Virus record (IMG/VR): IMGVR_UViG_3300028361_000125
Location: 1-23,720 of that record
From: a virus
DNA: 23,720 nt
Reading direction: 5' to 3' (one strand)
Shown one piece after another: positions 623-23,720 of the stretch. The position numbers and the translations under genes are program-made. How positions within the stretch are numbered: position 1 is the stretch's first letter; every line of letters begins with the position of its first letter. The notes under the pieces are model-generated. The model had not been told where the DNA came from. It saw only the letters and a list, made by a program, of their open reading frames with translations, and ran no database searches.

Positions 623-2641
623 TCATGCTTTTAATACCAAATCTTCAAGTGATTGACCCTTGGTATTTGTTGCGCTGTGTATATAATCTGTACCTGAAGT
701 ATTGCCGATTATTTCCCATGATAGCTCTGCTAGTAACCCTTTTGGCTTGATTTGTAGAACTGCTACGCTCTTACCATAACTATCAATACTCCCAGGGTCA
801 TCTCCATACTTATATGCTGCGTCCTTAGCTAGAAATGCACCGCCGTACTGCCATTGGCCTATGCCTGTAGCTGTAGTGGTAGTAACAAAGGTATCACTAC
901 CTGCTGCACTTGACGTCCCGTTACGAGTTAGTCCAGTGGCGTTTACTGTAATTGAACCTCTAGGCTGTAGTAGTTTGAAGTATTGCCTACGTATCTTGGC
1001 TAGGTTAAGTCCGTCCTCATCCCACACTAAAGCTGAAAAGGCTAGTCGGCTTCTCCATGCTACGTTGTCATCTTGGTGTGATCGTGAACCTGCTCGTGTA
1101 AACTCAAGTATTCTGTTACCTACTAATACACAGAAGTGAGTGTCACCAGCGTTATCTTCGTATAGCCACATATCTTTAGCCGCTACTGGCCAGCGTAATA
1201 TCCAAGGATTACCTTTACGTGATTTGTCATGTACCCATATCTCATTGTTACTAGATGAGCCTACTGGTAGTGCGTAGTAGTTACGCTGTCTTAACTCAAC
1301 ACCTACAGCACCAGATAGAGCTTCTAAGTTAATCTTTGCGACGTCTGGTTCTATGGCTTGGGCGATTGATTGGGTCGTTAGTATGTTTACAATGTTCTGT
1401 GAAGTACCTGTAGATTTGAAATCTAGCCCTGTAGGGTAGTCTATAGCGTCACCGTTTAGGATAGTTGCTCTTGGGGCGTAAGTACCCGACTGGCCGTTAG
1501 CCTCGTAGACGTTAGGGTATACAATAGCTTGGTCACCAACAGTAAGTGTTTCAAAGGTTACGTGGAACAAGTTACCTCTACCAGCCGCACCTCTAGCAGA
1601 TACAGTTATAACAGGGTCGCCCTTACCATTACGGAAGCTAGTAACGTAGTTTAGTTGGGTGTCGCCATTTTCATCTATCGGTACATATCCACCCCCGTTA
1701 TATGGTGAGAAGTCTGCTGTAGAGCTTATAGAGCCTGGTGATGAGTAGTAAAGTAGATTATCTGCGGTAACGCCATATACAGTACCGTTCTTCTTGTCTA
1801 CATGCATGTGAGTGAATACAGCACCTTCTGTAGAGTTACCTTCTGGGGCTATCTTGAATGGATTTGTGGCGAGTGTTCCGTAGTCTATGAATGATGTTTG
1901 GTCTGATCCCACTGAGTAGAGTTCTAGTTGGGTGTCTGCTGTGTTCCCGTAATAGATAGTATAGGTAACTGCACCTGATACAGCGCCCCATGAGATAGTA
2001 CAGAAGTCAGTAAGGTTCACCCAACTGTTGCGGTCTTTGGCGGCGTTATCTGATGATACAGTGCTGGCGATTGACTCTCCGACTGAATTACTAGCTGTGA
2101 CTCGGTAGTAGTGAGTTGAACCACCTGCTGTACCCGAATAGACTACAGAGCTTATAGAAGGTGTTGTTAGGGCTGTGTATTTAACTACTGCGTCTGTGGC
2201 TAGGTCTACATAAGATAAGTTATCTACACCGTTATAGATGTACACCTTGTTCTTATTCTGAACGCCTGAAGCCCATGCCTCGTCATCATAGGTATTAGAA
2301 CCGCCCAATACAGTATATCCACCACCGTCTTTTTGTTTATAAAGTACACCGTTAGCGCCAGTGTCCATCATCCATAGGTTATATCGCTCTCTACTCTGGT
2401 AGAACTTACCACGCCCTATAGCTGGAAATGTAGGTTGTGTACCGTAGGCTACTAGTGGTGGTCTTGGGCGGGATACGTGGTCCTGTACCAGTTCCATGTT
2501 GGTCATGTCTGATAGGGATTCGATAGGTCGTCTGGAGTCGTCAAACGTGGAGATATAACCCTTTTCAAAAGAGTTCTGGTGTATGTTTACTATCTTACGA
2601 GACTTACGTGAGTTGCGCTTTGACTGCTGTTGAAAAGGCAT
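623..2641 (-). CDS. Tail nozzle/stabilisation-like virion protein with FnIII-like domain
   Basis: 672 residues. The N-terminus is basic, followed by KGYISTFDDSRRPIESLSDM and then VSRPRPPLVAYG (about residues 28-67), a block I associate with podoviral tail nozzle or stabilisation proteins that fold as beta-propellers. Residues about 158-255 have a fibronectin type III-like pattern (HYYRVTASNSVGES, then VTYTIYYG). The remainder is beta-rich with repeated Tyr/Gly/Asp turns and no transmembrane segment. ATG at 2641 directly abuts the TAA of the upstream adaptor-like gene, so translation is probably coupled. In short-tailed phages the adaptor and nozzle genes are usually adjacent, which supports the call. 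It could instead be a host-recognition or other tail-surface protein. Confidence 0.6.
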   Translation of the reverse strand: MPFQQQSKRNSRKSRKIVNIHQNSFEKGYISTFDDSRRPIESLSDMTNMELVQDHVSRPRPPLVAYGTQPTFPAIGRGKFYQSRERYNLWMMDTGANGVLYKQKDGGGYTVLGGSNTYDDEAWASGVQNKNKVYIYNGVDNLSYVDLATDAVVKYTALTTPSISSVVYSGTAGGSTHYYRVTASNSVGESIASTVSSDNAAKDRNSWVNLTDFCTISWGAVSGAVTYTIYYGNTADTQLELYSVGSDQTSFIDYGTLATNPFKIAPEGNSTEGAVFTHMHVDKKNGTVYGVTADNLLYYSSPGSISSTADFSPYNGGGYVPIDENGDTQLNYVTSFRNGKGDPVITVSARGAAGRGNLFHVTFETLTVGDQAIVYPNVYEANGQSGTYAPRATILNGDAIDYPTGLDFKSTGTSQNIVNILTTQSIAQAIEPDVAKINLEALSGAVGVELRQRNYYALPVGSSSNNEIWVHDKSRKGNPWILRWPVAAKDMWLYEDNAGDTHFCVLVGNRILEFTRAGSRSHQDDNVAWRSRLAFSALVWDEDGLNLAKIRRQYFKLLQPRGSITVNATGLTRNGTSSAAGSDTFVTTTTATGIGQWQYGGAFLAKDAAYKYGDDPGSIDSYGKSVAVLQIKPKGLLAELSWEIIGNTSGTDYIHSATNTKGQSLEDLVLKA

Positions 2642-3416: not shown

Positions 3417-6400
3417 TCATACTACTGCATTTTCTAATAGTTGTCTTAGCGATTTATTCACTGATATAGGGTTGCTACCACCTTCGTAGAAGAAACTGAA
3501 CTTCTTAGGTTTAGAGCCTTTGCCTGCTGATTTACGCCCACTAGATTTTCTACCACCCTTACTGCTTGAACGACTAGAGCTACTTGATGTCTGATTGCTA
3601 ACTAATCCATAGCCTAGTTCTTCTCGTAGCATCTTGCCTACTTGTGGGTACTTCTGTAGACCTGCTTGAGTTAATGCGTTGTCTATCTCTATTACTTTAT
3701 CCATCTGAGCTTTGCTGATAGTGCCGTCTTGTATTCTTGAGCGCATGTCATTGTCACCTAGTTTGTAGAATGATTGTGTTTTATCGTCTAGTTGTGACTT
3801 AACAGTACTTTTTAGGAAGGTGTCTGTAGCTTTTGATTGTGCGATTTCATCTTTGCCTTCAGAATTCTTTTTATAGCGTGAGTATTCTTCTGCAAACTTG
3901 CTGTCTAGTTTTACTCCGCCTATTTCTAACCCTCTTTGGTCTAATAGTGTCTTTGCCTCTGTGTTTACCCTATCTATGGTTTCTCTTAGTTCGTCTGTGT
4001 CGTAATCACCAATCTTTATGCCGTCACCTTTTTTACTGTAAGCGTCTACTATTTTGTCGTAGTCTGTGCCAGTAGCTTGTACGTCTTGAGTTTTTCCACT
4101 TGCACTAGTACCACTAGCTCTACGGTCTTGTATGCCTTGTACCGTTTTAGCCGCATTACCAGATTGTTGTATAGACTCTTGTATAGCCTTAACGTCATCC
4201 TTGCCTGTAATGTTACCCTGTTTGTTGTCGTAGTATGCTCTAGCTCCAGATGTTGAATTAGGACCAAATAGTAGGCTCTTGGTTGCATTTATTGGGTCGG
4301 CTGATACAGGGAACGTCGGGTTGTTGCCACCGTCTACTGCGTGACCTCTAACCAATGCTTGTGCGCCAGTAACCGTTTTTCTTAGTTGGTTTCCAGCTGG
4401 AATAAATCCTCTAGACACTTCTTCGGCTGCGTTCTGTACATCACCCTCTATTAGAGATTTAACGCCCTTGATCCCACGCTCTACTACCTGTACTGGTGCT
4501 GCTTGTCCGTCAAACCTACCAACATCTGAGTCTTGACCGAATACGTCTTTTCTTAGTTCTTGTGGAAGTATGTTAGCACCTGCCATTACAAATGGGTTCA
4601 TGTTAGCTGCTTCACTGGCAAACCGTTGCGCCGTACCACCGATTTTACCTACAGTACTTCTTTCGTCATCTTCATCATCTTCTGAGAAGTCTTTTATTGT
4701 ATCTAAGGTAGCGCCTAGGAAGTCTGGTAATGGTTCAAACCCTGTGACAGATGCCAGGATACTGTTCATAACAAAGGCTCCTGCAACGTACTTGCCTTTT
4801 TGAACAGGTGTTAGGTCTTTCCAGAATAGTTGGTTCTGTGCGTTTACTTCTAGGGTGTACTGTAGAACTCCGTTAGCTACGGTACTTCGGTATATCTCTG
4901 GCTTGTCTGCAATACCACGACCAGCGACAACTCGCTCTGCCATTCTGTCTGCTTCTACAACAGCCTCGTCTCCTTTAAATCCTCTTGCTAATGCTGCCTC
5001 ATGTTCTGCATAGAACGTCATCTTAACAAACTCTTGCTCTACTACTTGTAGTGGTATACCTAGAGCGTCTAAGCCCTTGGATACATTACTTCTTATAGGT
5101 GAGTTTACGTTTGTTATTCTTGACTGAACAAATCGTGATTTTTCTATTATTGGGTCGTTAGTTGCTAGTTTCTTAACTGCTACCAACGTATTCTTACCGC
5201 CAGCGTGAGCGATTGTAGATGGTATACCAAGTGTCTGAGATAATACTGATTGAGCGTTACCTAGTATAGTGGCTCGTCCACCTATCTTCTGTAGTGTCTG
5301 CCATCCCTTGAGCGCTACTGGACCAGTATCACCCATTTTATCTACTACTGTTCGGTCTAGTGCGTTTGTCTTACCAGCTAGTGCGTTTGCGTATTCTTGC
5401 CATCCGTTAATAACTTTATCAATATTAGTGTCGTTAAACTTCTCTTTGAAAGCATCTCTTAGGTCTGCTTTAACTGTTTTTTCATCAAACTCTGATTCAA
5501 ACTTTTGAGCTGTACGCATAGCTGTTTCTACGGCTCTAGCTCTTACGGCTGATTCAGTCATGTGTATGTTGTATAGGGTAGGCTCTAGGTAGGAGTCAAC
5601 GGCTTCAAATGGGTCTTTCTTAAAGTCCTGTGCGCCCTTACGCTGTTGAAAGAATGGGTTCCAGCGTTTGCGTGGTTCAAACTCACCAGTACGTCCTGAT
5701 ATTTCTCCAGGTACACCTTTACGAGTATTGCCGTCTGCTTCTCCTAATGCTGAGTTCCTTAGCTTGCCATACATATCACCAGCAAAACTAGTCTTGTTGC
5801 TTAGCTCGCTAATGTGAGTGAGGTAGTCTTTACGCTTTGCTACTTCTGGCTCGCCAAATCGTGCAAATTCCTTATTAACTCTAGTCAGAAGTGTGTCGTA
5901 TACTTTACGAGTTTCTTTTTTGTATAGGTCTATCTGCTTGACTGTTTCTGTGCCGTATTCAGCAGTTATATCTTTTCGTGTAGTAGTTCCCTCAATATAG
6001 TTAAATACAGCTTCTTTATAGGCTTTCTTATTAACGCCAGATGGTTTAGCCTTCATGGTGTCCTTCATTCTTGTTTTAAGGTTTCCTCTTTCAGCGTTCA
6101 ATTCTTTACGGAAGTTAGTCTCGTTCTGTAGCTTGTTGGCTATGACGTACTTGTACACTTTGCTTGCTTGAGCCTTGTCTTTAAACACTCTAAATATGTT
6201 GCGCTCCATAGTCTGACCAACTTTGTAAGAGTTTTCTATGTTCTTAGCGTCACCTATAATATTATTCATATTAACCATTTCGCCACCTACGTTTACTTCT
6301 ACGCCTGTTGGATTGACTCTTACATGGTTGCCTATTACGGTTCCGTCGCTGTCTAGTACATTACCAGATTTAATAGTATGTATCTTAGGGTTGAACTTGT

Positions 6401-8579
6401 TAATAGCGACGCTTCTTCCAGCCTCACCTTTTTCTGCGTAATAGTTAAACTCTGTTCCTTCTCTTTCAGCTGTAGCTTGGGCTGATTGTATCTCTTGGCT
6501 ACTGTTTACTGCACTTTCTAGTATTTTAGCGTTACGGCTATTAGGGTTAGTAGCTACTGCATTAAAGATGTCTGCTGGGCGTGATGCGTCTTGGTTTGTA
6601 AATTCTGGTATACTGTTGGCATATGAAGAACCCTGAGACAATTTTTCTCTCTTTGATTTTAGTTCCGTTGCTTGGGATTGTTCTATTCCAAGAGCACTGG
6701 CTACCTGGTCTACTCCTGATGTTTCTGCTGTTTGTCTCTGCGTTTTGGTTTGACCGCCTAACTTAGTACTCTTACCTTGTAGGGCGTCTTGGAGTTTAGA
6801 TACTCTAGGGGTAGGTTTAGGGGTAGGTTGGGATTGGGCGGCAAATGGAACTACTTGGTCGCTACCAAATGCGCTATTTAATAACTTGGAGTTATCCCCA
6901 CTCTTATCCATCTGTACCACTACGCCATCGTGACCTTTAGACTCTAGTAGTTTAACTACATTGTCTGACCATGCCTGTGTCTCTGATTTAGAGAGTCCAG
7001 TAGGACTTGGATATTTATTGCCAGCTTCTCTGCTTATTTCTCTCCACTGTTGGTCGTTTGTTAATATTAGAGGCTTGCTTAGTTCTACTGATGATTCTTC
7101 TATATTTTCGCCAAACTTAGAGGCAGTATCTTTATCAAACGCATAATACTTTTTATCATTTCCTAGTATACTTTGGTCGTTGAGTGTCTTGACCTGCTTA
7201 TTGCCACCAGAACCCCTAAACACTTTATAAGTCTTAGCCTCTGTGTTTGCTGAGTCAAAGTCTCTAGTGCCGTCTGCTGATACAGGCTTAATAGCTTTGT
7301 TCTTTAGTCTTGTTGCTGGTGATGCTCCTATATTGTCTATGGCGTCTATTTCTTTGGCGGCTTGGTTCATAGCTGCTGTTTTGCCCATTTGCTGAGCTTT
7401 GGTGTATCTCTCTACCAATACGTTACGCTTTTGTTGTTGGGCGTCGGTTAGTCCTGTAGGGGTATTCAACTTAGTCCCTATCTCAACACCGCCTCTTGCG
7501 CCTGCACCTAAGATTCCGCCAGCAAGTACTGATTGGGCGACACCCTCTGTAAGGCTTCTGGTTGGATCGTAAGTCTTTTGTGATGCAAAGTTATCTGCTA
7601 CTGTCTGTAGACCTTCTGTAGTACCCTCTGTGAGTCCTGATGCTACTAGACGTGTAGTTGTCCTAGCTGCTGCGTTACCCGCTAGCCTTTGGGGTAGTTT
7701 GCTAACTAATTTAGAGGTTATCGCTCCACCAGCTTTTCCACCGATAGTTCCGAGAGATAGTTTCTCAAGTCCTGCGTTTACTCCACCTAATGCTGTACCA
7801 GCTCCAAATGATGCTTGAGGGCTATATCCTGCATCTTCCATGTTTCCTGCTAGGTCGTTAGCTGAACCTGTAAAGTACTTTGCTAGTACTGCTTTTTGAG
7901 TAACAGGGTTGAGTGAATTAACAAGGTCTCCACCTAGTGAAATACCACCGCTAATGAGTGTGTCTCCAAGTCCTCTATTGGCAAAGTCGCCTTGTTGGTC
8001 TACTGCACCAAGCCCTTGTAGCTTGTCTCCGAACTCGACAAGTCCATCAGCGTTACCACCTAGTGCGTTTACACCTCTACCACCGTATGCAAGAAGGCCA
8101 CCAGCTGTATTAGCATATATATCATCTAGCGTTGAAAGCCCCGTTAGTACTGGGCGTAATACCTTGTTATTAGCTACTGAATTAGCAGCAGGTAATATAG
8201 CTTTTTGGAAGCCTGACATACCGCCTTGTGTATTATTGTTTAATGTGTTTTGTAGCCCTTGGTTAAACTGTTGGGCAGTTATAGATCCAGATTTAAACCT
8301 GTCCCTCAAGGCTATCGCTTGCTCACGCTCTACCTTGTTGGCGTCTGTTCTAGCTTGCTGGCTAGTCTGCGATTGTTTGAACGTCTTACCGCTATCGAAT
8401 GGATTTACTTGGTTAAAAGCTTTTGATATATTGCTTCGGTTATCTACAGCTTTAGTCTGAGCAGGTGGAGCCATTCTTTTTCGGGCAGCGTTAGAAGTCC
8501 TCGCAATACCTTGGCGAGCGTTCTCTTCCTTATCCCAGAAATCACTGGATTCCCAGAGGTTGCGTAAACTGAATCCCAT
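3417..8579 (-). CDS. Giant internal virion / ejection protein with ART-like domain
   Basis: 1720 residues, starting at ATG 8579 after AAGGAG. Residues 120-370 are Gly/Ala rich with amphipathic or weakly hydrophobic stretches, as in ejection proteins that insert into membranes. Residues about 450-580 look like an ADP-ribosyltransferase fold of the kind seen in phage polyvalent proteins: YKVFRGSGG near 451, KYYAFDKDTASKFGE near 477, SKGHDGVVVQ near 547, DQVVPF near 574. Residues 770-930 are charged and helical, ending KRKDYLTHISELS. Residues 1090-1285 hold further hydrophobic segments (KYVAGAFVMNSILASVTGF). Residues 1664-1693 form a Ser/Lys/Arg-rich basic tail. I see no lysozyme or transglycosylase motif. 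It probably enters the host with the genome; function is inferred from size, layout and neighbours. Confidence 0.65.
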   Translation of the reverse strand: MGFSLRNLWESSDFWDKEENARQGIARTSNAARKRMAPPAQTKAVDNRSNISKAFNQVNPFDSGKTFKQSQTSQQARTDANKVEREQAIALRDRFKSGSITAQQFNQGLQNTLNNNTQGGMSGFQKAILPAANSVANNKVLRPVLTGLSTLDDIYANTAGGLLAYGGRGVNALGGNADGLVEFGDKLQGLGAVDQQGDFANRGLGDTLISGGISLGGDLVNSLNPVTQKAVLAKYFTGSANDLAGNMEDAGYSPQASFGAGTALGGVNAGLEKLSLGTIGGKAGGAITSKLVSKLPQRLAGNAAARTTTRLVASGLTEGTTEGLQTVADNFASQKTYDPTRSLTEGVAQSVLAGGILGAGARGGVEIGTKLNTPTGLTDAQQQKRNVLVERYTKAQQMGKTAAMNQAAKEIDAIDNIGASPATRLKNKAIKPVSADGTRDFDSANTEAKTYKVFRGSGGNKQVKTLNDQSILGNDKKYYAFDKDTASKFGENIEESSVELSKPLILTNDQQWREISREAGNKYPSPTGLSKSETQAWSDNVVKLLESKGHDGVVVQMDKSGDNSKLLNSAFGSDQVVPFAAQSQPTPKPTPRVSKLQDALQGKSTKLGGQTKTQRQTAETSGVDQVASALGIEQSQATELKSKREKLSQGSSYANSIPEFTNQDASRPADIFNAVATNPNSRNAKILESAVNSSQEIQSAQATAEREGTEFNYYAEKGEAGRSVAINKFNPKIHTIKSGNVLDSDGTVIGNHVRVNPTGVEVNVGGEMVNMNNIIGDAKNIENSYKVGQTMERNIFRVFKDKAQASKVYKYVIANKLQNETNFRKELNAERGNLKTRMKDTMKAKPSGVNKKAYKEAVFNYIEGTTTRKDITAEYGTETVKQIDLYKKETRKVYDTLLTRVNKEFARFGEPEVAKRKDYLTHISELSNKTSFAGDMYGKLRNSALGEADGNTRKGVPGEISGRTGEFEPRKRWNPFFQQRKGAQDFKKDPFEAVDSYLEPTLYNIHMTESAVRARAVETAMRTAQKFESEFDEKTVKADLRDAFKEKFNDTNIDKVINGWQEYANALAGKTNALDRTVVDKMGDTGPVALKGWQTLQKIGGRATILGNAQSVLSQTLGIPSTIAHAGGKNTLVAVKKLATNDPIIEKSRFVQSRITNVNSPIRSNVSKGLDALGIPLQVVEQEFVKMTFYAEHEAALARGFKGDEAVVEADRMAERVVAGRGIADKPEIYRSTVANGVLQYTLEVNAQNQLFWKDLTPVQKGKYVAGAFVMNSILASVTGFEPLPDFLGATLDTIKDFSEDDEDDERSTVGKIGGTAQRFASEAANMNPFVMAGANILPQELRKDVFGQDSDVGRFDGQAAPVQVVERGIKGVKSLIEGDVQNAAEEVSRGFIPAGNQLRKTVTGAQALVRGHAVDGGNNPTFPVSADPINATKSLLFGPNSTSGARAYYDNKQGNITGKDDVKAIQESIQQSGNAAKTVQGIQDRRASGTSASGKTQDVQATGTDYDKIVDAYSKKGDGIKIGDYDTDELRETIDRVNTEAKTLLDQRGLEIGGVKLDSKFAEEYSRYKKNSEGKDEIAQSKATDTFLKSTVKSQLDDKTQSFYKLGDNDMRSRIQDGTISKAQMDKVIEIDNALTQAGLQKYPQVGKMLREELGYGLVSNQTSSSSSRSSSKGGRKSSGRKSAGKGSKPKKFSFFYEGGSNPISVNKSLRQLLENAVV

Positions 8580-15072: not shown

Positions 15073-15909
15073 CTACGCAGTTTTGTGGATACCGATGCAG
15101 TTGACTTTATTAACATCAACGAATGCGTCGTATCGGTGGCGGTATTCAAGCTGATCGCCTGATACACCTACTGGGTTTTTGTGTAGTGTGTAGTCAACTA
15201 ACTTCTCTGGTGATACACATACGCTTGGGTGTGTGATGACTAGGTCGGTGTTAGCTGGCATACGAACTGATGGTACTTCTACTAGCTTAACGCCGTCGAT
15301 AGTTCCAAGTACACCTGATTTCTTATCTTTGTAAGACAAGTCAGATGAATCAAGTAGTGTTGACTGCTTGATGAAGTTTACGTAGGCAGGAGTAAGCAGT
15401 GCTACTCGTCCTTCTACTGGTGCTTCTTTGTCGCTAATATCAGCGTTGATAGTTAGGAAGTTCGTGTAAGCGTTAGCTGCTGTGGTAGCTCCGTCTGCAA
15501 CGATGTCGTCACGACCTGCTTCTTCACCAGCTGTTACGATTGTCTGAATGATGTATGTGTCAATTTCAGGGATTGTAACATTCTTAGTTGCTTGTGCTAG
15601 GTATTTACCTGGCTTACGAACCATCATTGAGTCTGTGTAGTTACTCTTGTCGATAGTTTTTGTCCATGCACGGTCTCGTGAGAGTGTGAATGTCTGTACT
15701 GTGTCTTCTACTTCTGTAGCGTTACCGTATCGAGCTTGTCCTCCGTTTACGTTATAGTCGCCCATTGTAGGGTCAGTTAGTGTGTAAACGTTAATTGCGT
15801 TAACACCGTCCCATGACCAGTTCTGGTTAGTTACCATTTTAGTCTTGCGACCAGCTGATAGTGCTTCAGAAGTTTTCTTCTCAAATTTACTGGCTAAGTT
15901 TACTGCCAT
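15073..15909 (-). CDS. Major capsid protein
   Basis: 278 residues, ATG at 15909 with AAAGG upstream, 28 bases after the scaffold-like gene. Typical capsid features are visible: ALSAGRKTKMVTNQNWSWDG near the N-terminus, FTLSRDRAWTKTIDKSNYTD near residue 75, the helical segment NVTIPEIDTYIIQTIV, then VALLTPAYVNFIKQS near 165, ending VDVNKVNCIGIHKTA. This layout (N-arm, a strand crossing the dimer contact, spine helix, A-domain end) fits an HK97-fold capsid protein. The long acidic gene just upstream fits a scaffold. Family-level subdivision cannot be made by eye. Confidence 0.85.
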   Translation of the reverse strand: MAVNLASKFEKKTSEALSAGRKTKMVTNQNWSWDGVNAINVYTLTDPTMGDYNVNGGQARYGNATEVEDTVQTFTLSRDRAWTKTIDKSNYTDSMMVRKPGKYLAQATKNVTIPEIDTYIIQTIVTAGEEAGRDDIVADGATTAANAYTNFLTINADISDKEAPVEGRVALLTPAYVNFIKQSTLLDSSDLSYKDKKSGVLGTIDGVKLVEVPSVRMPANTDLVITHPSVCVSPEKLVDYTLHKNPVGVSGDQLEYRHRYDAFVDVNKVNCIGIHKTA

Positions 15910-17152: not shown

Positions 17153-17454
17153 TTCTTCTCCCTCATAATTGCTGCTATACGTGACTTGAGGTTCTGCATT
17201 GAAGCTTTATAAAGTTTGAGTGCTTTAACTTCTGCTGTGATGTCACCATCTTTATCAATAAGGTCTAGCTGTCGTAGGATGACTGCGTTAGTCTCTTTGT
17301 CTATTTCTTTATTGAATACTTCTACTGCTGGTAGTATCTTGGCTCTAGCTTGTACCTTTACTTCTGCTTTCTCTTCCTTCTTTAACTTGACTCGCTCTAG
17401 CTTCTCGGCTGTTGCTGAGTTCATACCTGTGTATAGTGCTGAATCGTCTCTCAT
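17149..17454 (-). CDS. Small helical protein downstream of portal (101 residues)
   Basis: ATG at 17454 overlaps the portal stop in an ATGA junction, so it is translated by coupling to portal. The protein is helical and Lys/Glu rich (EKLERVKLKKEEKAEVKVQA, later LYKASMQNLKSRIAAIMREK), likely a coiled coil. No enzyme or membrane motif is visible. Its fixed link to portal suggests a role in head assembly or DNA packaging, but I do not recognise the family. Confidence 0.6.
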   Translation of the reverse strand: MRDDSALYTGMNSATAEKLERVKLKKEEKAEVKVQARAKILPAVEVFNKEIDKETNAVILRQLDLIDKDGDITAEVKALKLYKASMQNLKSRIAAIMREKK

Positions 17455-19454
17455 TGTTGTTGTTCACTTTCTGCTTTAGCTTGCATTGCTCGTACTACGT
17501 CATCTGGTGGTACACCGTTAGCTTCCATGTCTAGGGCTTCGGCTGCTGTTTCGGCTGATACGCCATACTCTTGCATTACTGCCTCCATGTTTGCTTGTAG
17601 TTCTTCTGGTGATTGCTCTTGCTGTTGGGCGGGCTGTCCTTGTAGTTTCTGACCTTTAATCTCCATATCCATTTGGTGTTTCTGGTCATTTTGCTGTAGT
17701 TTCTGTTCCATTAGAGGGTCGCCACCTTGAGCGTTAGGGTCTTGGCTTGGGCCTTGACCTTGTTCTTGCATAGCCTGTTGCTGTGCCATCTCTTCGGGGT
17801 CTACTTCTTCTAGTATCTTGTCGTTATCGGTAGTTAGGTTGATGATAGAGCTAAATAACTCCCCCATGTTTAGGCGGTAACCTGATTGTGCTAGTACCTG
17901 TTCAATGGTTGGGTCAATGCTACGTAGTTCTACAATCTTTAGTAGTGCCTCTAGTCGCTTATCTTCATCCTTAGACTTGTCATCTTCTGCGTCTAGTTCA
18001 AATGTGAATGTAGATCGTGCGTTATCCCATATGATTTCTAGTTCATTAGTTGGCTCGCCCTCTGCGTCTACTGGGAACTCTAGCCCTGCTTTAGCTAGTC
18101 GTTCACGCTCTTCATCAGATAGCTTGAGTAAGTCTGTACCTTGCATGTTAGCGAAGGTGATGTTGATTAGGTTCTTAGCTACTGCTTCGTATGTAACGTA
18201 TAGGTTATCTTTGAAGTCCTCATCATCAATAGATAGCTGGTTCTGTTGGAAGTCTACGCCAGCTGGAGTCTTGGAGTAGTTAGGGTCGCCGCTACCTGAT
18301 GATGATATAGATGTATCGCCTACAGGTATGAGCTGGTTAAGTGATGTCTTGTACATAGATACAGTAGATGCTAGTTGGTTGTATACACCGTTAGCCATCT
18401 CTACAGGTTCTACTTGTGCGCCGCCTAGGTACCAGTTCTGATCTTGTGCATAGATAAGTGAGTCTTCGTCTACTTCGTCCTCTGGTCCCATAATCTTTTT
18501 CGGCGGGCGGATACCAATCTGCGTAGCAAGGATATGCAATCGTCGTAGTTCATCTAGTACGTTTTGTGTACCACCTGCGAGTCGCACAATACCTATACCG
18601 TAAGGGTTGTTGAAGTCTTGGTAGCAGTATAGATACTTAACTGGTATGTCACCTGTTGGGTCTGGGTTTTCCCATTCACGTACTGTTGAGTCAGTAGCTT
18701 TGTGATACATGTAAAACGGTGCTTTGATACCACGCTGGAATACTATACAGAACTGTATGCCACCTTTAGTAACTGCCTTGTCTTGCTTGTCTTCGTGTTC
18801 TTCGTTAGCGTCTCGGTCTTCACCCTCTGTCTTAGAGTCGTAGATTTCTTGTAGTTCTTTAACGCTCCACTTGTTATAGCCGTCTGTTGGATTCTCTTTA
18901 GTTTCCTTCTTGGCTTGTTCGATAAGGTCTTTAACCTGTTTACGAGTGTAGAATACATCCCAGAAGATAAGGTCTGAGTCTTGGTCTGATACCTTACCAG
19001 CTTCTAGGCGTACATCTTGTGCGTAAGGAATAATAATATCACCACCTGTGTAGTCTCCATTGTCCACTAGTAGAGAGATGATAGGTTGACCACCATATAT
19101 AGCGGCTTTACGGACTGCATCCTTCCATTTGCGGGACCATGGTGCTTGTGAGTTAGCGTTAGGGATAATCTTGCTTTCCCAGTAGATGTTGGCTAGTTCC
19201 GTGATCCATGCTTCGTCTCGGTCTTGTGATTTGGCGCGACCTTTAAGCTCTGAGTTGACGATACGCTTAGGTAGTTTAAATAGTGCTGCAGCTAGTGAGC
19301 CGTCATTAACTTCTGGTAGGGTCTCGTCTAGGTCTTCTATTAGGCCGTTGTCTGCTAAGCGTTCGTACTCGCCATAGTTCTTGCGCCATTGATAGGCTTC
19401 ATCTTTAGCTCGTGTATATTGTTCTTTTAAGTCGTCTTGGTCGAAGAATGCCAT
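17451..19454 (-). CDS. Portal protein
   Basis: 667 residues, ATG at 19454. Portal hallmarks include PWSRKWKDAVRKAAIYGGQP (about 105-124), QDVRLEAGKVSDQDSDLIFW (about 146-165), and NNPYGIGIVRLAGGTQNVLD near residues 282-301, followed by ELRRLHILATQIGIRPPKKI. The last 130 residues are rich in Gln and helical (the C-terminal barrel or crown region). Length matches podovirus-type portals. It forms the dodecameric ring through which the terminase packages DNA. The best ribosome-binding site (CAGGAG) is unusually far upstream, about 14 bases, so translation may be modest. A promoter-like sequence lies 60-90 bases upstream. Confidence 0.85.
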   Translation of the reverse strand: MAFFDQDDLKEQYTRAKDEAYQWRKNYGEYERLADNGLIEDLDETLPEVNDGSLAAALFKLPKRIVNSELKGRAKSQDRDEAWITELANIYWESKIIPNANSQAPWSRKWKDAVRKAAIYGGQPIISLLVDNGDYTGGDIIIPYAQDVRLEAGKVSDQDSDLIFWDVFYTRKQVKDLIEQAKKETKENPTDGYNKWSVKELQEIYDSKTEGEDRDANEEHEDKQDKAVTKGGIQFCIVFQRGIKAPFYMYHKATDSTVREWENPDPTGDIPVKYLYCYQDFNNPYGIGIVRLAGGTQNVLDELRRLHILATQIGIRPPKKIMGPEDEVDEDSLIYAQDQNWYLGGAQVEPVEMANGVYNQLASTVSMYKTSLNQLIPVGDTSISSSGSGDPNYSKTPAGVDFQQNQLSIDDEDFKDNLYVTYEAVAKNLINITFANMQGTDLLKLSDEERERLAKAGLEFPVDAEGEPTNELEIIWDNARSTFTFELDAEDDKSKDEDKRLEALLKIVELRSIDPTIEQVLAQSGYRLNMGELFSSIINLTTDNDKILEEVDPEEMAQQQAMQEQGQGPSQDPNAQGGDPLMEQKLQQNDQKHQMDMEIKGQKLQGQPAQQQEQSPEELQANMEAVMQEYGVSAETAAEALDMEANGVPPDDVVRAMQAKAESEQQQ

Positions 19455-20102: not shown

Positions 20103-20470
20103 GAGTTCTCCCCTAGGTATTTAATTGGGTCGTCTGCTATTACCATTTGTTGTAGGTGGTATTGCCATGCTGGGTTTGATTTGTAGTCTACATCTCCATC
20201 TACGCCAGCGCCGTATTCAGTGTGAACAACAAACAGCGCCATATCTGTCTTAATTGGTAGTACTGCAAGTGACTTGTCTATGTGCAACTCTTCACCCCAT
20301 AGAGCCTTAGCAAAGTCATGGTCGAATAGTAGTGAGCTAGGCCCACTGTATTGTAATCCGTACAGTAAGTACCTTTTAGTCATTTCTGGCAGTACAGTTT
20401 CTAGGTCTACGTCCCACCCACCATCTATAGCCTTAGTGATTGCTTGTTCTAGTATTTCTTTAGGTAACAT
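20099..20470 (-). CDS. Conserved phage protein downstream of terminase (123 residues)
   Basis: The chosen start is ATG at 20470 (MLPKEILEQAITKAIDGGWD), because AAAGGAG lies 8 bases before it. The frame is open to 20551, but that extension lies entirely inside the terminase end. The start overlaps the terminase coding sequence by 11 bases, implying coupling. The pattern ITKAIDGGWD followed by SLLFDHDFAKALWGEE resembles a small protein often seen in phage genomes that describes a single short alpha/beta domain; its function is unknown to me. Confidence 0.65.
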   Translation of the reverse strand: MLPKEILEQAITKAIDGGWDVDLETVLPEMTKRYLLYGLQYSGPSSLLFDHDFAKALWGEELHIDKSLAVLPIKTDMALFVVHTEYGAGVDGDVDYKSNPAWQYHLQQMVIADDPIKYLGENS

Positions 20471-21632
20471 GGAATGAACTCCTTTTCTGTGTTTGGCGTT
20501 TGTGTTCTTTCTTCTTTGGGCGGAGGGCATCAAATCCATAGCGTAGTGCATCCATAAAGTGATTCCATAGGTCTACTGGTACGTTGAGTACTCTCTCGTC
20601 CTTATCCTTGAGCCATAGGTAGTTACGATACTCTTTAAGTCCATTGATAGAACGCTTGGTGATAGATATTTGTTGGTCTCTTACATACTGTATACCCTGA
20701 TTAACTGAGTCCTTGCCCTTGACTACACCTATGACGTTGACACCATATAGCCTTAACTCGTCTATACTTTTAGGTTCGGCGGAGTCTGCTATCACTAGTG
20801 CCTTGTCTACGTTATTCAGTATGTCTGCTATCTGTTTGTTAGTCAGCCCCTTCTGATAAGTAACCTCATCTATAATATAGCCACCATTGTATTCATATAT
20901 AGCTACTATAGCTGTTGGGTCGTTAGTATAACCGAAGTCTAGCCCATATCGTACTAGTCTAGCTTCATGAGGTATTGAGTCTATTACTTGCCAGCCTGTG
21001 AAGACACGCTCTTCTGCCTCACCTAGTAGACCCTCACCGTATACTCTCCACCATTGCTTGTTGATCTTGCGACGTTCTATCTCTCCTACAATAGACTCTG
21101 ATAGTGCTTCGTTGTCCTTGTAGGTGAGTACTATGAATTCTACGTCATCTCTGTGGCCTATGTATTCCTCATACATGAAGAACTCTGCTACTGGGTTCCA
21201 GTCAGCGAAACAGAACTCCTTAGTACGTATAAGCATCTGTTCAAATGATTCCTTGTGTATGTTGTTGCACTCATTGACGAATAGTCTATCTCTCCTGGGT
21301 CCACGTACCTTGCCTGGTTGGTCAGCACTAAAGAACTCTATCTTGCTGCCTGTCTCGAATGTATAAGTAAAGTCTGTCTTAGACCATGCGTCGTCTTTGA
21401 AGTATCCTTGCTCCTGCATAATACTGATGAAGTCTCTCATAGCTCCTTTACGTAGGTGAGGGAATGATTCAGATACTACTGATGTGAGGGTTGGTGACTT
21501 GTCTGATTGGGCGCGGGCTATTAGATATATAAGTATAGATATAGTCTTGCTGGCTGACGTACCACCTGCTACTGCACGTATACGTTTAGACATTCCTTTG
21601 ATCTTCTTGGTGGCGGTAGTCTGGCTATACAT
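20460..21632 (-). CDS. terL: Terminase large subunit
   Basis: 390 residues. The ATPase domain has a Walker A motif GGTSASKT (23-30) and a Walker B RLFVNEC with Glu121. The RNase H-like nuclease domain has its three acidic residues at Asp232 (RYGLDFGYTNDP), Asp283 (VIADSAEP) and Asp361 (HFMDALRYG). All expected catalytic groups are present, so the packaging motor and DNA-cutting activity should be intact. ATG at 21632 overlaps the small-subunit gene by 8 bases and has no strong ribosome-binding site, so translation is probably coupled. Length is at the short end for the family. Confidence 0.93.
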   Translation of the reverse strand: MYSQTTATKKIKGMSKRIRAVAGGTSASKTISILIYLIARAQSDKSPTLTSVVSESFPHLRKGAMRDFISIMQEQGYFKDDAWSKTDFTYTFETGSKIEFFSADQPGKVRGPRRDRLFVNECNNIHKESFEQMLIRTKEFCFADWNPVAEFFMYEEYIGHRDDVEFIVLTYKDNEALSESIVGEIERRKINKQWWRVYGEGLLGEAEERVFTGWQVIDSIPHEARLVRYGLDFGYTNDPTAIVAIYEYNGGYIIDEVTYQKGLTNKQIADILNNVDKALVIADSAEPKSIDELRLYGVNVIGVVKGKDSVNQGIQYVRDQQISITKRSINGLKEYRNYLWLKDKDERVLNVPVDLWNHFMDALRYGFDALRPKKKEHKRQTQKRSSFHVT

Positions 21633-22062
21633 CTATTTGGTCTACATCCATTATAGGCTTAGGGAGGATATGTGTAGTCTCTGTCTCGTTCTTATCCTTC
21701 CATCCGAAGTTGTTCTTTAGGTTGAATATAGCCCCTGCTTGGTTGCGTGATTCCATCAGTCTAACCTCTACATCTTCGTGTACTCGGTTCCTTGCCATCT
21801 TAACTGTGCCGAAAAACTCCTCTTTCTTTGAGTAGTTTAATAGTGTATCTCGGTCTATTCCTAATCTGTTAGCTAGCCCACTCATCGTGTATGGGGCGGG
21901 ATGGGTGATTGCTACTACGCCTCCCTCTTTATCATGTATTTCTTTTATTCTATTATTACAGAACTCAAAGTACTCTTCTATCTTGTCTTCTAGTTCTTCT
22001 GCTGACTTGAACAATAGTGGTCTGCCGTTTGGTCTTATGACTATCTCTTTCTTCTTAGGCAT
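21625..22062 (-). CDS. terS: Terminase small subunit
   Basis: 145 residues, ATG at 22062 with AAGGA upstream, overlapping the preceding gene by 8 bases. The N-terminus GRPLLFKSAEELEDKIEEYF is followed by a helix-turn-helix-like segment YTMSGLANRLGIDRDTLLNY (about 58-77) and EEFFGTVKMARNRVHEDVEV. The end AIFNLKNNFGWKDKNETE is typical of terminase small subunits that recognise packaging-site DNA and stimulate the large subunit. Immediate coupling to the large-subunit gene supports the call. Confidence 0.87.
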   Translation of the reverse strand: MPKKKEIVIRPNGRPLLFKSAEELEDKIEEYFEFCNNRIKEIHDKEGGVVAITHPAPYTMSGLANRLGIDRDTLLNYSKKEEFFGTVKMARNRVHEDVEVRLMESRNQAGAIFNLKNNFGWKDKNETETTHILPKPIMDVDQIDV

Positions 22063-22300
22063 TGGGCAAGTCCTTACATAAGTAGTTAGTTATGTGGTAG
22101 CCTGCTGCTTCTAGTAGTCCTTCTTCTGACTCAGCTGTTACTGTAAATGACTTATCCCAGTTGTATAGTCCTATGCTATCGTCCTTCTTGCCTTGTGATT
22201 CGTCTATGAAGCGTATCTCTATTGCTTCTCGTGGGTAGATGGCGTGTAGTGTTATTGCTTGTTGGGGTTTGGCGGGCTTAGGAGGGGTGTCAGGTTCCAT
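22055..22300 (-). CDS. First gene of the late operon, unknown (81 residues)
   Basis: ATG at 22300 has AAGGA about 13 bases upstream. The N-terminus is Pro/Lys rich (MEPDTPPKPAKPQQAI), followed by a beta-rich middle and a helical end (EEGLLEAAGYHITNYLCKDL). It is the first gene after the leftward promoter and overlaps the terminase small subunit by 8 bases. I do not recognise it. Its place suggests a packaging accessory or a regulator. Confidence 0.6.
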   Translation of the reverse strand: MEPDTPPKPAKPQQAITLHAIYPREAIEIRFIDESQGKKDDSIGLYNWDKSFTVTAESEEGLLEAAGYHITNYLCKDLPNA

Positions 22301-22329
22301 ATAGGGGCTGTCCTTGATTAGTTAGCTAT

Positions 22330-22358
22330 AGTCTATCATGCTTGTGATTGTGTAGCAA
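22330..22358 (-). promoter_or_regulatory. Leftward promoter of the late operon
   Basis: On the minus strand TTGCTA (22358-22353) and TAGACT (22335-22330) are 17 bases apart, with TG one base before the -10, an extended -10 arrangement. Its -35 lies inside one of the CAAGC repeat arms, so a protein binding the arms could block or help it. The first gene starts about 30 bases downstream. Confidence 0.5.
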
Positions 22359-22437
22359 GCTATCGGCTTGTGTAGCAAGCTGTGGATAAGCTACTAATTA
22401 TGTATGCACAAGGTATTGCTTATGTTGATAGCTTGTG
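22340..22437. repeat. Alternating GCTTG / CAAGC arms (operator or iteron-like)
   Basis: GCTTGTG occurs at 22340-22346, 22366-22372 and 22431-22437. AGCAAGCT occurs at 22354-22361 and 22374-22381, inside a 14-base direct repeat TTGTGTAGCAAGCT with a 20-base period. Successive arms are about 10 bases apart, one helical turn. The cluster sits between the two divergent promoters. Regulator binding or replication initiation is inferred. Confidence 0.6.
22381..22389 (-). promoter_or_regulatory. Perfect DnaA-box match
   Basis: TGTGGATAA on the plus strand is the reverse complement of TTATCCACA, the strongest bacterial DnaA box. It directly follows the second direct repeat and precedes an AT-rich stretch. 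One perfect 9-mer could occur by chance in a window this size, so the context carries the argument. Confidence 0.4.
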
Positions 22438-22444
22438 CTAGAAT
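22416..22444 (+). promoter_or_regulatory. Rightward early promoter
   Basis: TTGCTT (22416-22421) and TAGAAT (22439-22444) are 17 bases apart, with TGC immediately before the -10 (extended -10). The layout mirrors the leftward promoter. Transcription would start near 22451, at the foot of the first leader hairpin. Confidence 0.5.
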
Positions 22445-22450
22445 GTTGTT

Positions 22451-22659
22451 AGTGAATAAGGCAACTTACTCACAGTACCTTGAGAGCTTATCGATTACAT
22501 AAGGGAACAGCACTAACCGAGCAATAAGCCGACTTGTACTTACTACCTTATGTGACTGGTGGGATTGGTGTTCTATCTCCTATACAAGAGCGTAAGTTGG
22601 GCGGCAATGCGAGAGCTGCTCAACATATAACGTACTGTGTAGGCGTTAGAACATCAATT
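22451..22659 (+). ncRNA. Structured leader RNA with three consecutive hairpins
   Basis: No plausible gene is present. Hairpin 1 (22452-22473): GTGAATAAG pairs with CTTACTCAC at 8 of 9 positions around a GCAA loop (GNRA type). Hairpin 2: TTACATAAGG (22495-22504) pairs with CCTTATGTGA (22546-22555). Hairpin 3: 22563-22575 pairs with 22647-22659 (13 pairs), 22579-22585 with 22637-22643 (7 pairs), and GTTGGGCGGC (22596-22605) with GCTGCTCAAC (22615-22624; 10 pairs including two G-U) around a 9-base loop. The leader begins about 7 bases after the -10 box. No U-tract terminator follows, so it is probably the 5' part of the early transcript. Confidence 0.6.
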
Positions 22660-22745
22660 GGGCGGTCAGCACCACTAGTGTGAACTGTACGAGTGTAAAC
22701 CTCAAATCGCCCCCAAATAAAATGAAAGTAATGAAAGGAATTATT

Positions 22746-22817
22746 ATGAACGATATATTGAATACAGTGTTTTGGTCTATTACTATTGGAGCATTTGTTC
22801 TGATGGTGATTGGTTAG
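22746..22817 (+). CDS. 23-residue single-pass membrane peptide
   Basis: ATG at 22746 has AAAGGA at good spacing. The product is MNDILNTVFWSITIGAFVLM plus VIG: a short polar start, then about 16 hydrophobic residues forming one membrane helix. An in-frame ATG at 22722 would add eight residues but has no ribosome-binding site. It is the first gene after the structured leader. Phages often encode such tiny membrane peptides early; a holin is not indicated from sequence alone. Confidence 0.55.
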   Translation: MNDILNTVFWSITIGAFVLMVIG

Positions 22818-22826
22818 GCGGGCGGT

Positions 22827-23102
22827 ATGACCAACACCCCCAACCCCCAAGCTAATACGGTAGATGAGATAGTGGAAGAACTGTTTGATATGGGCATTTT
22901 AACTGGAATTGGTAAAACAAATATTGATGTTAGTGGAGCAAAGCGGTTAGCCACCCAAGCCATCCAAGCCCTAATTACAGAAGCAAAAGCAGAGGTTTGG
23001 CAAGAAGTAGATGAATTAGCTCTAGGCTATAAGTCTTACAGAATGTCTGATGTTGCTCAAGACCGCCTAACCCAATTAAAGAAAGATTTAAGTAATGAGT
23101 AA
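22827..23102 (+). CDS. 91-residue protein with TPNPQAN tag
   Basis: ATG at 22827 begins MTNTPNPQANTVDEIVEELF. The region before it (GGCGGGCGGT) contains no usual ribosome-binding site. After the tag, the protein is helical and Ala/Glu rich (TQAIQALITEAKAEVWQEVD), with no membrane segment or metal site. It overlaps the next gene by 8 bases. Function is unknown. Its first codons are shared with two later genes. Confidence 0.7.
   Translation: MTNTPNPQANTVDEIVEELFDMGILTGIGKTNIDVSGAKRLATQAIQALITEAKAEVWQEVDELALGYKSYRMSDVAQDRLTQLKKDLSNE
22836..22857 (+). repeat. N-terminal tag element, copy 1
   Basis: A 22-base element beginning ACCCCCAAMCCCCAAGCTAA and ending TA, in frame and encoding TPNPQAN plus the first base of the next codon. 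It differs from copies 2 and 3 at one base (C for A at the ambiguous position). Confidence 0.85.
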
Positions 23103-23175
23103 TATATGTAAGAGGTGCAACCAAGCCGAAGCTGAAATTAACTATTGCCAAGAGTGTTGGCTAGAAATGTGGTAG
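23095..23175 (+). CDS. 26-residue double-CxxC zinc-ribbon peptide
   Basis: ATG at 23095 overlaps the upstream gene end by 8 bases. The product MSNICKRCNQAEAEINYCQE continues CWLEMW: CKRC and CQEC are ten residues apart, the spacing of a minimal four-Cys zinc ribbon. Nothing else is present, so it is a stand-alone zinc knuckle that may bind nucleic acid or protein. Reading frame, start overlap and intact metal ligands argue that it is a real gene. Confidence 0.65.
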   Translation: MSNICKRCNQAEAEINYCQECWLEMW

Positions 23176-23177
23176 CT

Positions 23178-23315
23178 ATGAGTAAATGGATATACAAACA
23201 AATATGGAACTTTAGTGAATGGTCTAGTATCGGGCTAGGCAAGTACGCACCCTACGTATTTGGCAAAATGCTAGGGAGTAAAGGCTCAGAAGTTGATGAT
23301 ACTGGTAAGCGATAA
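23178..23315 (+). CDS. Small phage protein (45 residues)
   Basis: ATG at 23178 starts two bases after the upstream stop. The product MSKWIYKQIWNFSEWSSIGL continues GKYAPYVFGKMLGSKGSEVD and DTGKR. The pattern of aromatic residues followed by GLGKYAPYVFGKMLGSK resembles small proteins I have seen in early regions of other phages, but I know no function. It is amphipathic rather than clearly transmembrane. Its stop overlaps the next start by one base (TAATG). Confidence 0.55.
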   Translation: MSKWIYKQIWNFSEWSSIGLGKYAPYVFGKMLGSKGSEVDDTGKR

Positions 23316-23536
23316 TGACCCCCAAACCCCAAGCTAATACACTAATGGAATTAAAAATGAACCTATGGAGCTTAGCAGATACGGCAGAAGTAGAGGAGTT
23401 AGTAACTAAATGTGAGGGCAAGCATATCCAGCAGGTAGTCTATTCAACCTATCACAAAGGCATGACACAAATATGTTTTGGTTGCATGGCGGTGAATACC
23501 AGCATACCAATCGCCCCACTAAAGGAGAACAAGTAG
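23315..23536 (+). CDS. 73-residue protein with TPKPQAN tag
   Basis: The start ATG at 23315 shares its A with the previous stop (TAATG), and no ribosome-binding site is evident, so re-initiation is likely. The product begins MTPKPQANTLMELKMNLWSL. After the tag it is helical, then carries Cys residues in VTKCEGKHIQQV and QICFGCMAVN, including a CxxC. A weak metal site is possible. Function is unknown. It ends with AAAGGAG, which serves the next gene. Confidence 0.65.
   Translation: MTPKPQANTLMELKMNLWSLADTAEVEELVTKCEGKHIQQVVYSTYHKGMTQICFGCMAVNTSIPIAPLKENK
23318..23339 (+). repeat. N-terminal tag element, copy 2
   Basis: The same 22-base element as at 22836, with A at the ambiguous position (encoding Lys), identical to copy 3. 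It begins at codon 2 of the 73-residue gene. Confidence 0.85.
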
Positions 23537-23599
23537 ATGTCTAACACCCCCAAACCCCAAGCTAATAGACTAAACCAACTAATTAAGGAGAAATTATGA
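23537..23599 (+). CDS. 20-residue peptide made largely of the tag
   Basis: ATG at 23537 follows AAAGGAG. The product is MSNTPKPQANRLNQLIKEKL, so half of it is the shared tag followed by a short basic helix. TGA overlaps the next start in an ATGA junction. It could be a leader peptide that delivers ribosomes to the next gene, a degraded relative of the tagged genes, or a functional micropeptide. Confidence 0.5.
   Translation: MSNTPKPQANRLNQLIKEKL
23546..23567 (+). repeat. N-terminal tag element, copy 3
   Basis: The same 22-base element, identical to copy 2. Here it fills most of the first half of the 20-residue peptide gene. Confidence 0.85.
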
Positions 23600-23720
23600 G
23601 TAAATTAACAAAAGAACAAGCCCTAGCAAAGATTGAAGAATTAAAGAAGTACGTTGACCAAGTTGATGTAGAGACTGATAAGCCTATTGGTATAGCTATC
23701 AAATCACGGTATGGCGAGTC
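23596..23720 (+). CDS. Unknown protein, C-terminus cut by right edge
   Basis: ATG at 23596 overlaps the previous stop (ATGA) with AAGGAG upstream. The visible 41 residues start MSKLTKEQALAKIEELKKYV, a helical segment, followed by DQVDVETDKPIGIAIKSRYG. The rest lies outside the window, so no function is proposed. It lacks the shared N-terminal tag. Confidence 0.7.
   Translation, partial: MSKLTKEQALAKIEELKKYVDQVDVETDKPIGIAIKSRYGE

Follow-up and report, generated by a model that had tools for sequence, protein, structure and literature searches.

Positions 22451-22659 (+) of this phage probably encode a functional, strongly structured leader RNA. Its reading as a structured leader transcribed from a predicted promoter that ends at 22444 is well supported by the folding z-score, the difference between the two strands, the best + strand promoter of the region, an intact Shine-Dalgarno sequence, and the lack of a real-looking + strand reading frame. 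Among the functions offered for the leader, stabilization of the transcript fits best, judged by its position and by analogy with bacterial mRNAs.

The window is the whole 23,720-base stretch analyzed, an IMG/VR virus record (IMGVR_UViG_3300028361_000125) of an uncultivated phage. Packaging and structural genes run leftward, small genes run rightward from 22746, and the leader lies between both sets. The rightward operon is probably the early one, as suggested by this gene layout. The features of the locus are as follows.

15073-15909, leftward: major head protein
17451-19454, leftward: portal-like gene
20460-21632, leftward: large terminase
21625-22062, leftward: small terminase
22330..22361, - strand: predicted leftward (late operon) promoter, TTGCTA-17-TAGACT with an extended -10; best minus-strand score in 22300-22760 (10.5)
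22348..22381, + strand: two direct 14-bp repeats TTGTGTAGCAAGCT (repeat search, family D7)
22381..22389, - strand: perfect DnaA box TTATCCACA, the window's sole exact copy (exact match)
22416..22444, + strand: predicted early promoter, TTGCTT-17-TAGAAT with extended -10 TGc (weighted sigma-70 scan)
22452-22473, + strand: hairpin H1 with a GCAA tetraloop; -7.5 kcal/mol, z -4.8 for 22451-22474
22487..22563, + strand: composite hairpin H2; -21.1 kcal/mol, z -3.4 (moderate)
22564-22658, + strand: H3, a 95-nt composite helix; -43.5 kcal/mol, z -7.1, the strongest element
22660-22713, + strand: candidate fourth helix GGGCG...CGCCC, seen in the fold of 22451-22714
22734..22739, + strand: Shine-Dalgarno region (AAAGG) that serves the first gene; predicted to be unpaired
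22746..22817, + strand: first small gene, an ORF of 23 aa with a Shine-Dalgarno sequence and one hydrophobic stretch (MNDILNTVFWSITIGAFVLMVIG)

The 23-aa ORF has no PHROG match better than E 0.22, and the gene after it starts directly, with no intervening terminator. Three window ORFs open with ACCCCCAAMCCCCAAGSTAAY, which encodes the N-terminal motif TPxPQAN (TPNPQAN/TPKPQAN), at 22836-22872, 23318-23354, and 23546-23582. The same sequence opens at least one ORF in each of about 12 other phage contigs (L015-L018, L137-L151), including some with unrelated terminases, and the ORFs that it opens are otherwise unrelated to one another. It resembles a start-associated sequence and could serve gene shuffling or translation. 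Just past the right end of the window, the overlapping contig L001 runs on into a pentapeptide-repeat gene of the ANLSGADL type (L001:1-300), and a related N-terminus is present in L016 and L017. Amid the structural genes, a 1720-aa ORF at 3417-8579 (-) has no Pfam or PHROG match and may encode an internal virion protein. A tRNA-Thr (anticodon agt) that ARAGORN reports at 2423-2512 (+), antisense to a 672-aa ORF at 623-2641, is probably spurious.

The early promoter, TTGCTT-17-TAGAAT, is the top + strand promoter in 22300-22760 and ranks fourth on the + strand of the whole window. A stricter consensus promoter scan does not list the site, and it therefore stays a prediction. From its position, the rightward transcript would start at A22451. 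The first-pass annotation placed about 300 bases between the promoter and the first small gene, with a GCAA-tetraloop hairpin at the transcript start. Both placements agree with the distance of 295 nt from A22451 to the ATG at 22746 and with H1, which begins 1 nt after A22451.

The annotation also described three consecutive hairpins, and all three are present in the computed minimum-energy fold at the positions listed above. The predicted fold of 22451-22659 (+) has an energy of -74.1 kcal/mol and a z of -6.5, with none of 200 dinucleotide shuffles as stable. One fold dominates, with a mean pair probability of 0.96. In the computed order of local formation, H1, H2, and H3 form in turn as the transcript grows, and no competing fold lasts. 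In H2, a 10-bp helix closes a weakly paired apical region, and a 1x1 mismatch separates this helix from one of 7 bp that contains several G-U pairs. H2 abuts H3 with zero linker. The 36 pairs of H3 form a long, nearly continuous helix, with an apical 10-bp stem and a 9-nt loop, AAUGCGAGA. The stability signal is carried by H3 and H1. Taken alone, the fourth helix has a z of -0.8, no better than shuffles.

The minus strand of 22451-22659 folds far more weakly than the + strand (z -2.8). The modelled 22451-22714 structure contains ten G-U pairs, which explain this difference and point to selection on the + RNA. The leader is among the top few structured regions of the window and is not unique there. 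Another very strongly folding stretch, of 150 nt, is observed in a related phage contig at L044:2101-2250 (+), a few hundred bases upstream of its terminase (regression z -7.8).

The ribosome site of the first gene is predicted to be open. The probability of being unpaired is about 1.0 over 22735-22739, with or without the leader. One minimum-energy fold pairs CCUU with AAGG; masking of the ribosome site by this pairing is rejected because the accessibility prediction shows the site open. No terminator-like site is found in 21600-23720, in agreement with the annotation's statement that the hairpins are not followed by a terminator. As for coding on the + strand, the leader contains only GTG/TTG frames of at most 49 aa without a Shine-Dalgarno sequence, which does not account for the structure, and a 45-aa GTG frame from 22680 simply extends the small gene. 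Given the lack of a terminator, the open Shine-Dalgarno, and the lack of a convincing + frame, the leader is unlikely to be an attenuator, a terminating riboswitch, or a simple translational lock. For an attenuator or terminating riboswitch, there is neither a terminator-like site nor more than one dominant fold. For a translation-controlling riboswitch or thermometer, the Shine-Dalgarno is predicted unpaired whether the leader is present or not.

The favored role, held tentatively and at somewhat less than an even chance, is protection, with the RNA as a folded 5' UTR that would cap a long early leader ahead of the first gene and shield it while it carries no ribosomes. RNA polymerase would initiate at A22451, the start site that we infer, early in infection. 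H1 with its GCAA loop would fold at once and leave one unpaired 5' base. The 5' end would thus be inaccessible to pyrophosphohydrolase and to nucleases that depend on a free one, and H2 and H3 would put about 170 nt of ribosome-free leader into duplex. By this proposed stabilizing effect, the mRNA would last long enough for a ribosome to load 295 nt downstream, at the open Shine-Dalgarno.

Support for a protective leader comes from the strength of the + strand fold relative to the minus strand and to natural windows of related phages (6 of 3,500 as stable), the position of H1, the single dominant fold, the unpaired Shine-Dalgarno, and the lack of a terminator. It also comes from bacterial mRNAs, where RppH and RNase E require single-stranded 5' termini, which explains stabilization by 5' structure (review, PMC3997798). 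Two observations in other phages point the same way. In TerL-related phages, the segment +1..+36 after 74 predicted strong promoters has a z of -2 or lower in 20% of cases versus 5% at random positions, an enrichment to which palindromic DNA operators could contribute. Start hairpins look like a general habit of these phages, but on the mononucleotide test used for the 74 promoters the window's own +1..+36 reaches a z of only -1.8. The second observation is a leader of the same layout with an unrelated sequence, found in L026/L101 (IMGVR_UViG_3300049432_000210). On the strand divergent from the terminase, a hairpin at the expected start position is followed by two composite helices and then by a Shine-Dalgarno with a hydrophobic ORF of 31 aa. 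Counting against a purely protective role, H2 and H3 span more than 170 nt, beyond what a protective cap needs. Three rivals are therefore kept at lower weight: antitermination, processing by RNase III, and a link to a replication origin.

The first rival is RNA-mediated antitermination, in which nascent H2-H3 would bind its own RNA polymerase and cause read-through of terminators in the early operon, in the manner of the HK022 put RNAs, which contact the beta' zinc-binding domain of the polymerase, but without being related to them. The annotation had named put as a precedent. Its general plan is shared: putL lies just downstream of PL and is made of two stem-loops (PMC9378689), and the leader likewise sits just past a phage promoter and has two abutting stem-loops. 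HK022 putL and putR were located by aligning both early leaders and confirmed via annotated relatives. A covariance model (R2) was built from nine put RNAs and the leader was scored with filters off, giving 0.1 and -0.1 bits versus 73-98 bits for the put members tested. Membership in the put family is thereby ruled out. Of the precedent, the two stem-loops just past the promoter stand, themselves a weak criterion, and the family relationship falls. A score near zero excludes family membership, not put-like function. Against such a function, the fold is roughly three times as large as put, and the 1 kb of early region present contains no terminator and so no visible target. On balance, antitermination is unlikely. 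A 9-mer, CGGCAATGC, is common to H3 and putL; it lies in different hairpin arms and is judged to be chance.

RNase III processing is rated slightly below this. RNase III would cut H3 and so set the stability or translation of the first gene. The lambda pL-N leader carries an RNase III hairpin, and its processing by RNase III affects stability or translation. The long, nearly continuous H3, located within the 295 nt that precede the first early gene, would suit such a cut; against it, the fold leaves the Shine-Dalgarno uncovered, so no cut is needed to free it.

A role linked to replication is improbable. The divergent region would be a replication origin, and the structured RNA would prime or control replication. 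The window's sole exact DnaA box and both 14-bp repeats sit just upstream of the early promoter, and this gives circumstantial support to a link with replication; the repeats are possible operators or iterons. Related phages contain 28 exact DnaA boxes in 640 kb versus about 7.5 in a codon-block shuffle (about 3.7x), a null that was computed on a set nearly identical to the 28-box set. In these phages, 68% of the boxes are no more than 120 bp away from a predicted strong promoter versus 21% of random positions (p ~1e-6), a proximity that the intergenic location of both may confound. Examples of the box in relatives are found at L019:1324, L038:7534, L061:4706, and L104:1497. However, one box and two repeats make a poor origin, and DnaA may simply regulate the promoter. 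The leader also has no good promoter for an antisense RNA (best score 6.3), and the early region breaks off after roughly 1 kb, so that no replication genes come into view.

It is equally improbable that the leader is a regulatory RNA of its own, or part of a structured mRNA for a small hydrophobic peptide in a type I toxin-like arrangement, and that it works in trans or is itself targeted by an antisense RNA. The first ORF does encode a 23-aa hydrophobic peptide, and in L026 a hairpin with a T-rich tail, taken to be a terminator, comes after the structured leader and the 31-aa hydrophobic ORF. In the window, however, the next gene follows directly without a terminator, no notable antisense promoter is present, and the ribosome site is predicted to be open. 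Type I toxin mRNAs usually hide the ribosome site. Chance structure, a strongly folding stretch with no function, is also given little credence: 6 of 3,500 random 209-nt windows of related phages match the leader's stability (by regression z) and conservation could not be shown, but the fold is far better than shuffles, is placed exactly at the predicted start, and has a strand bias from ten G-U pairs, with no convincing coding constraint as a cause.

Searches for homologues find a single one. Contig L001 carries the leader at 100% identity and agrees with the window to 99.9% across 12 kb. Because this sole other copy is identical, covariation and conservation cannot be shown. The leader has no homologue by blastn among phages and plasmids. 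A covariance model of the leader (R1) finds no non-identical homologue in 95 related loci, in the whole records of 38 and 27 loci, or in 15 loci found by pattern. Scans of viral contigs with the neighboring 81-aa and 91-aa ORFs, with the H3 loop as a DNA pattern, and with part of the small peptide in back-translation return only L001 or unrelated DNA. Rfam 15 gives no match at gathering score in the window; in 22300-22800 there are only sub-threshold chance matches, none of them to the leader helices. Among genome contigs, the terminase search returned one distant match only, and the contigs of the closest terminase relatives (L002, L003, and L010, at 75-85%) stop just short of the leader. The absence of homologues says little because the contigs are fragmentary.

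The terminases of L101 and L102 are 93% identical, and in L102 (3141-3581) the leader and small ORF of L101 (3143-3586) are replaced by unrelated DNA of the same length, with both flanks of the block aligning at 77-83%. Covariation was attempted in the L026 leader; none is obtainable from L102, where the sequence is unrelated. L019 has a different leader in a very similar context, where a divergent promoter and a pair of GC-rich hairpins precede a Shine-Dalgarno. The divergent region of L032 looked structured at first and was considered as an analogue; on inspection, its hairpins are terminator-like and it was dropped.

If the leader is real, homology-based RNA catalogues would miss leaders of this sort, since phages whose terminases are 93% identical can exchange them. 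It is conceivable, though at long odds, that this is the first example to be seen of a larger, unrelated RNA class that acts on polymerase (or replication) in phages of uncultivated bacteria. Such a class would evolve fast and keep its layout but not its sequence, which would hide it from homology searches, and L026 would be its second example. If real, the window leader would show clearly that an early leader in a phage can keep its fold rather than its sequence. It offers a defined 264-nt fragment for tests of stabilization, antitermination, and RNase III processing.

Among known systems, the leader resembles the 5'-terminal stabilizing stem-loops of bacterial mRNAs (PMC3997798). These share a stem-loop 1-2 nt from the 5' end, a position that H1 is predicted to occupy, and an open ribosome site; the leader differs in the two further long helices after H1. 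Like the lambda pL-N leader, it spans about 200-300 nt and places a long hairpin ahead of the first early gene, but it lacks a masked Shine-Dalgarno and any link in sequence. It does not correspond to a lambda nut site, in which boxA precedes a short boxB hairpin. H1 at +2 leaves no room for boxA, no nut-like boxA lies on the + strand of the leader within three mismatches, and the boxA scan gave fewer matches than shuffles. The likeness to HK022 put is that of a phage early leader with successive adjacent stem-loops right after the promoter. Apart from its greater size, the window leader differs in having no terminator in sight and in lacking the conserved segments of put, e.g., CGAACGGC or GGCGGG in the right context. 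The leader of L026/L101 shares the start hairpin, the two composite helices, the Shine-Dalgarno, the small hydrophobic ORF, and the divergence from packaging genes. It differs in its unrelated sequence, its weaker z of -3.3, the apparent terminator after its small ORF, and its absence from a phage with a 93% identical terminase. Set against these systems, the window leader is an orphan, so far unclassified and of a fairly ordinary kind, unless the L026 pattern of shared layout without shared sequence proves to be general.
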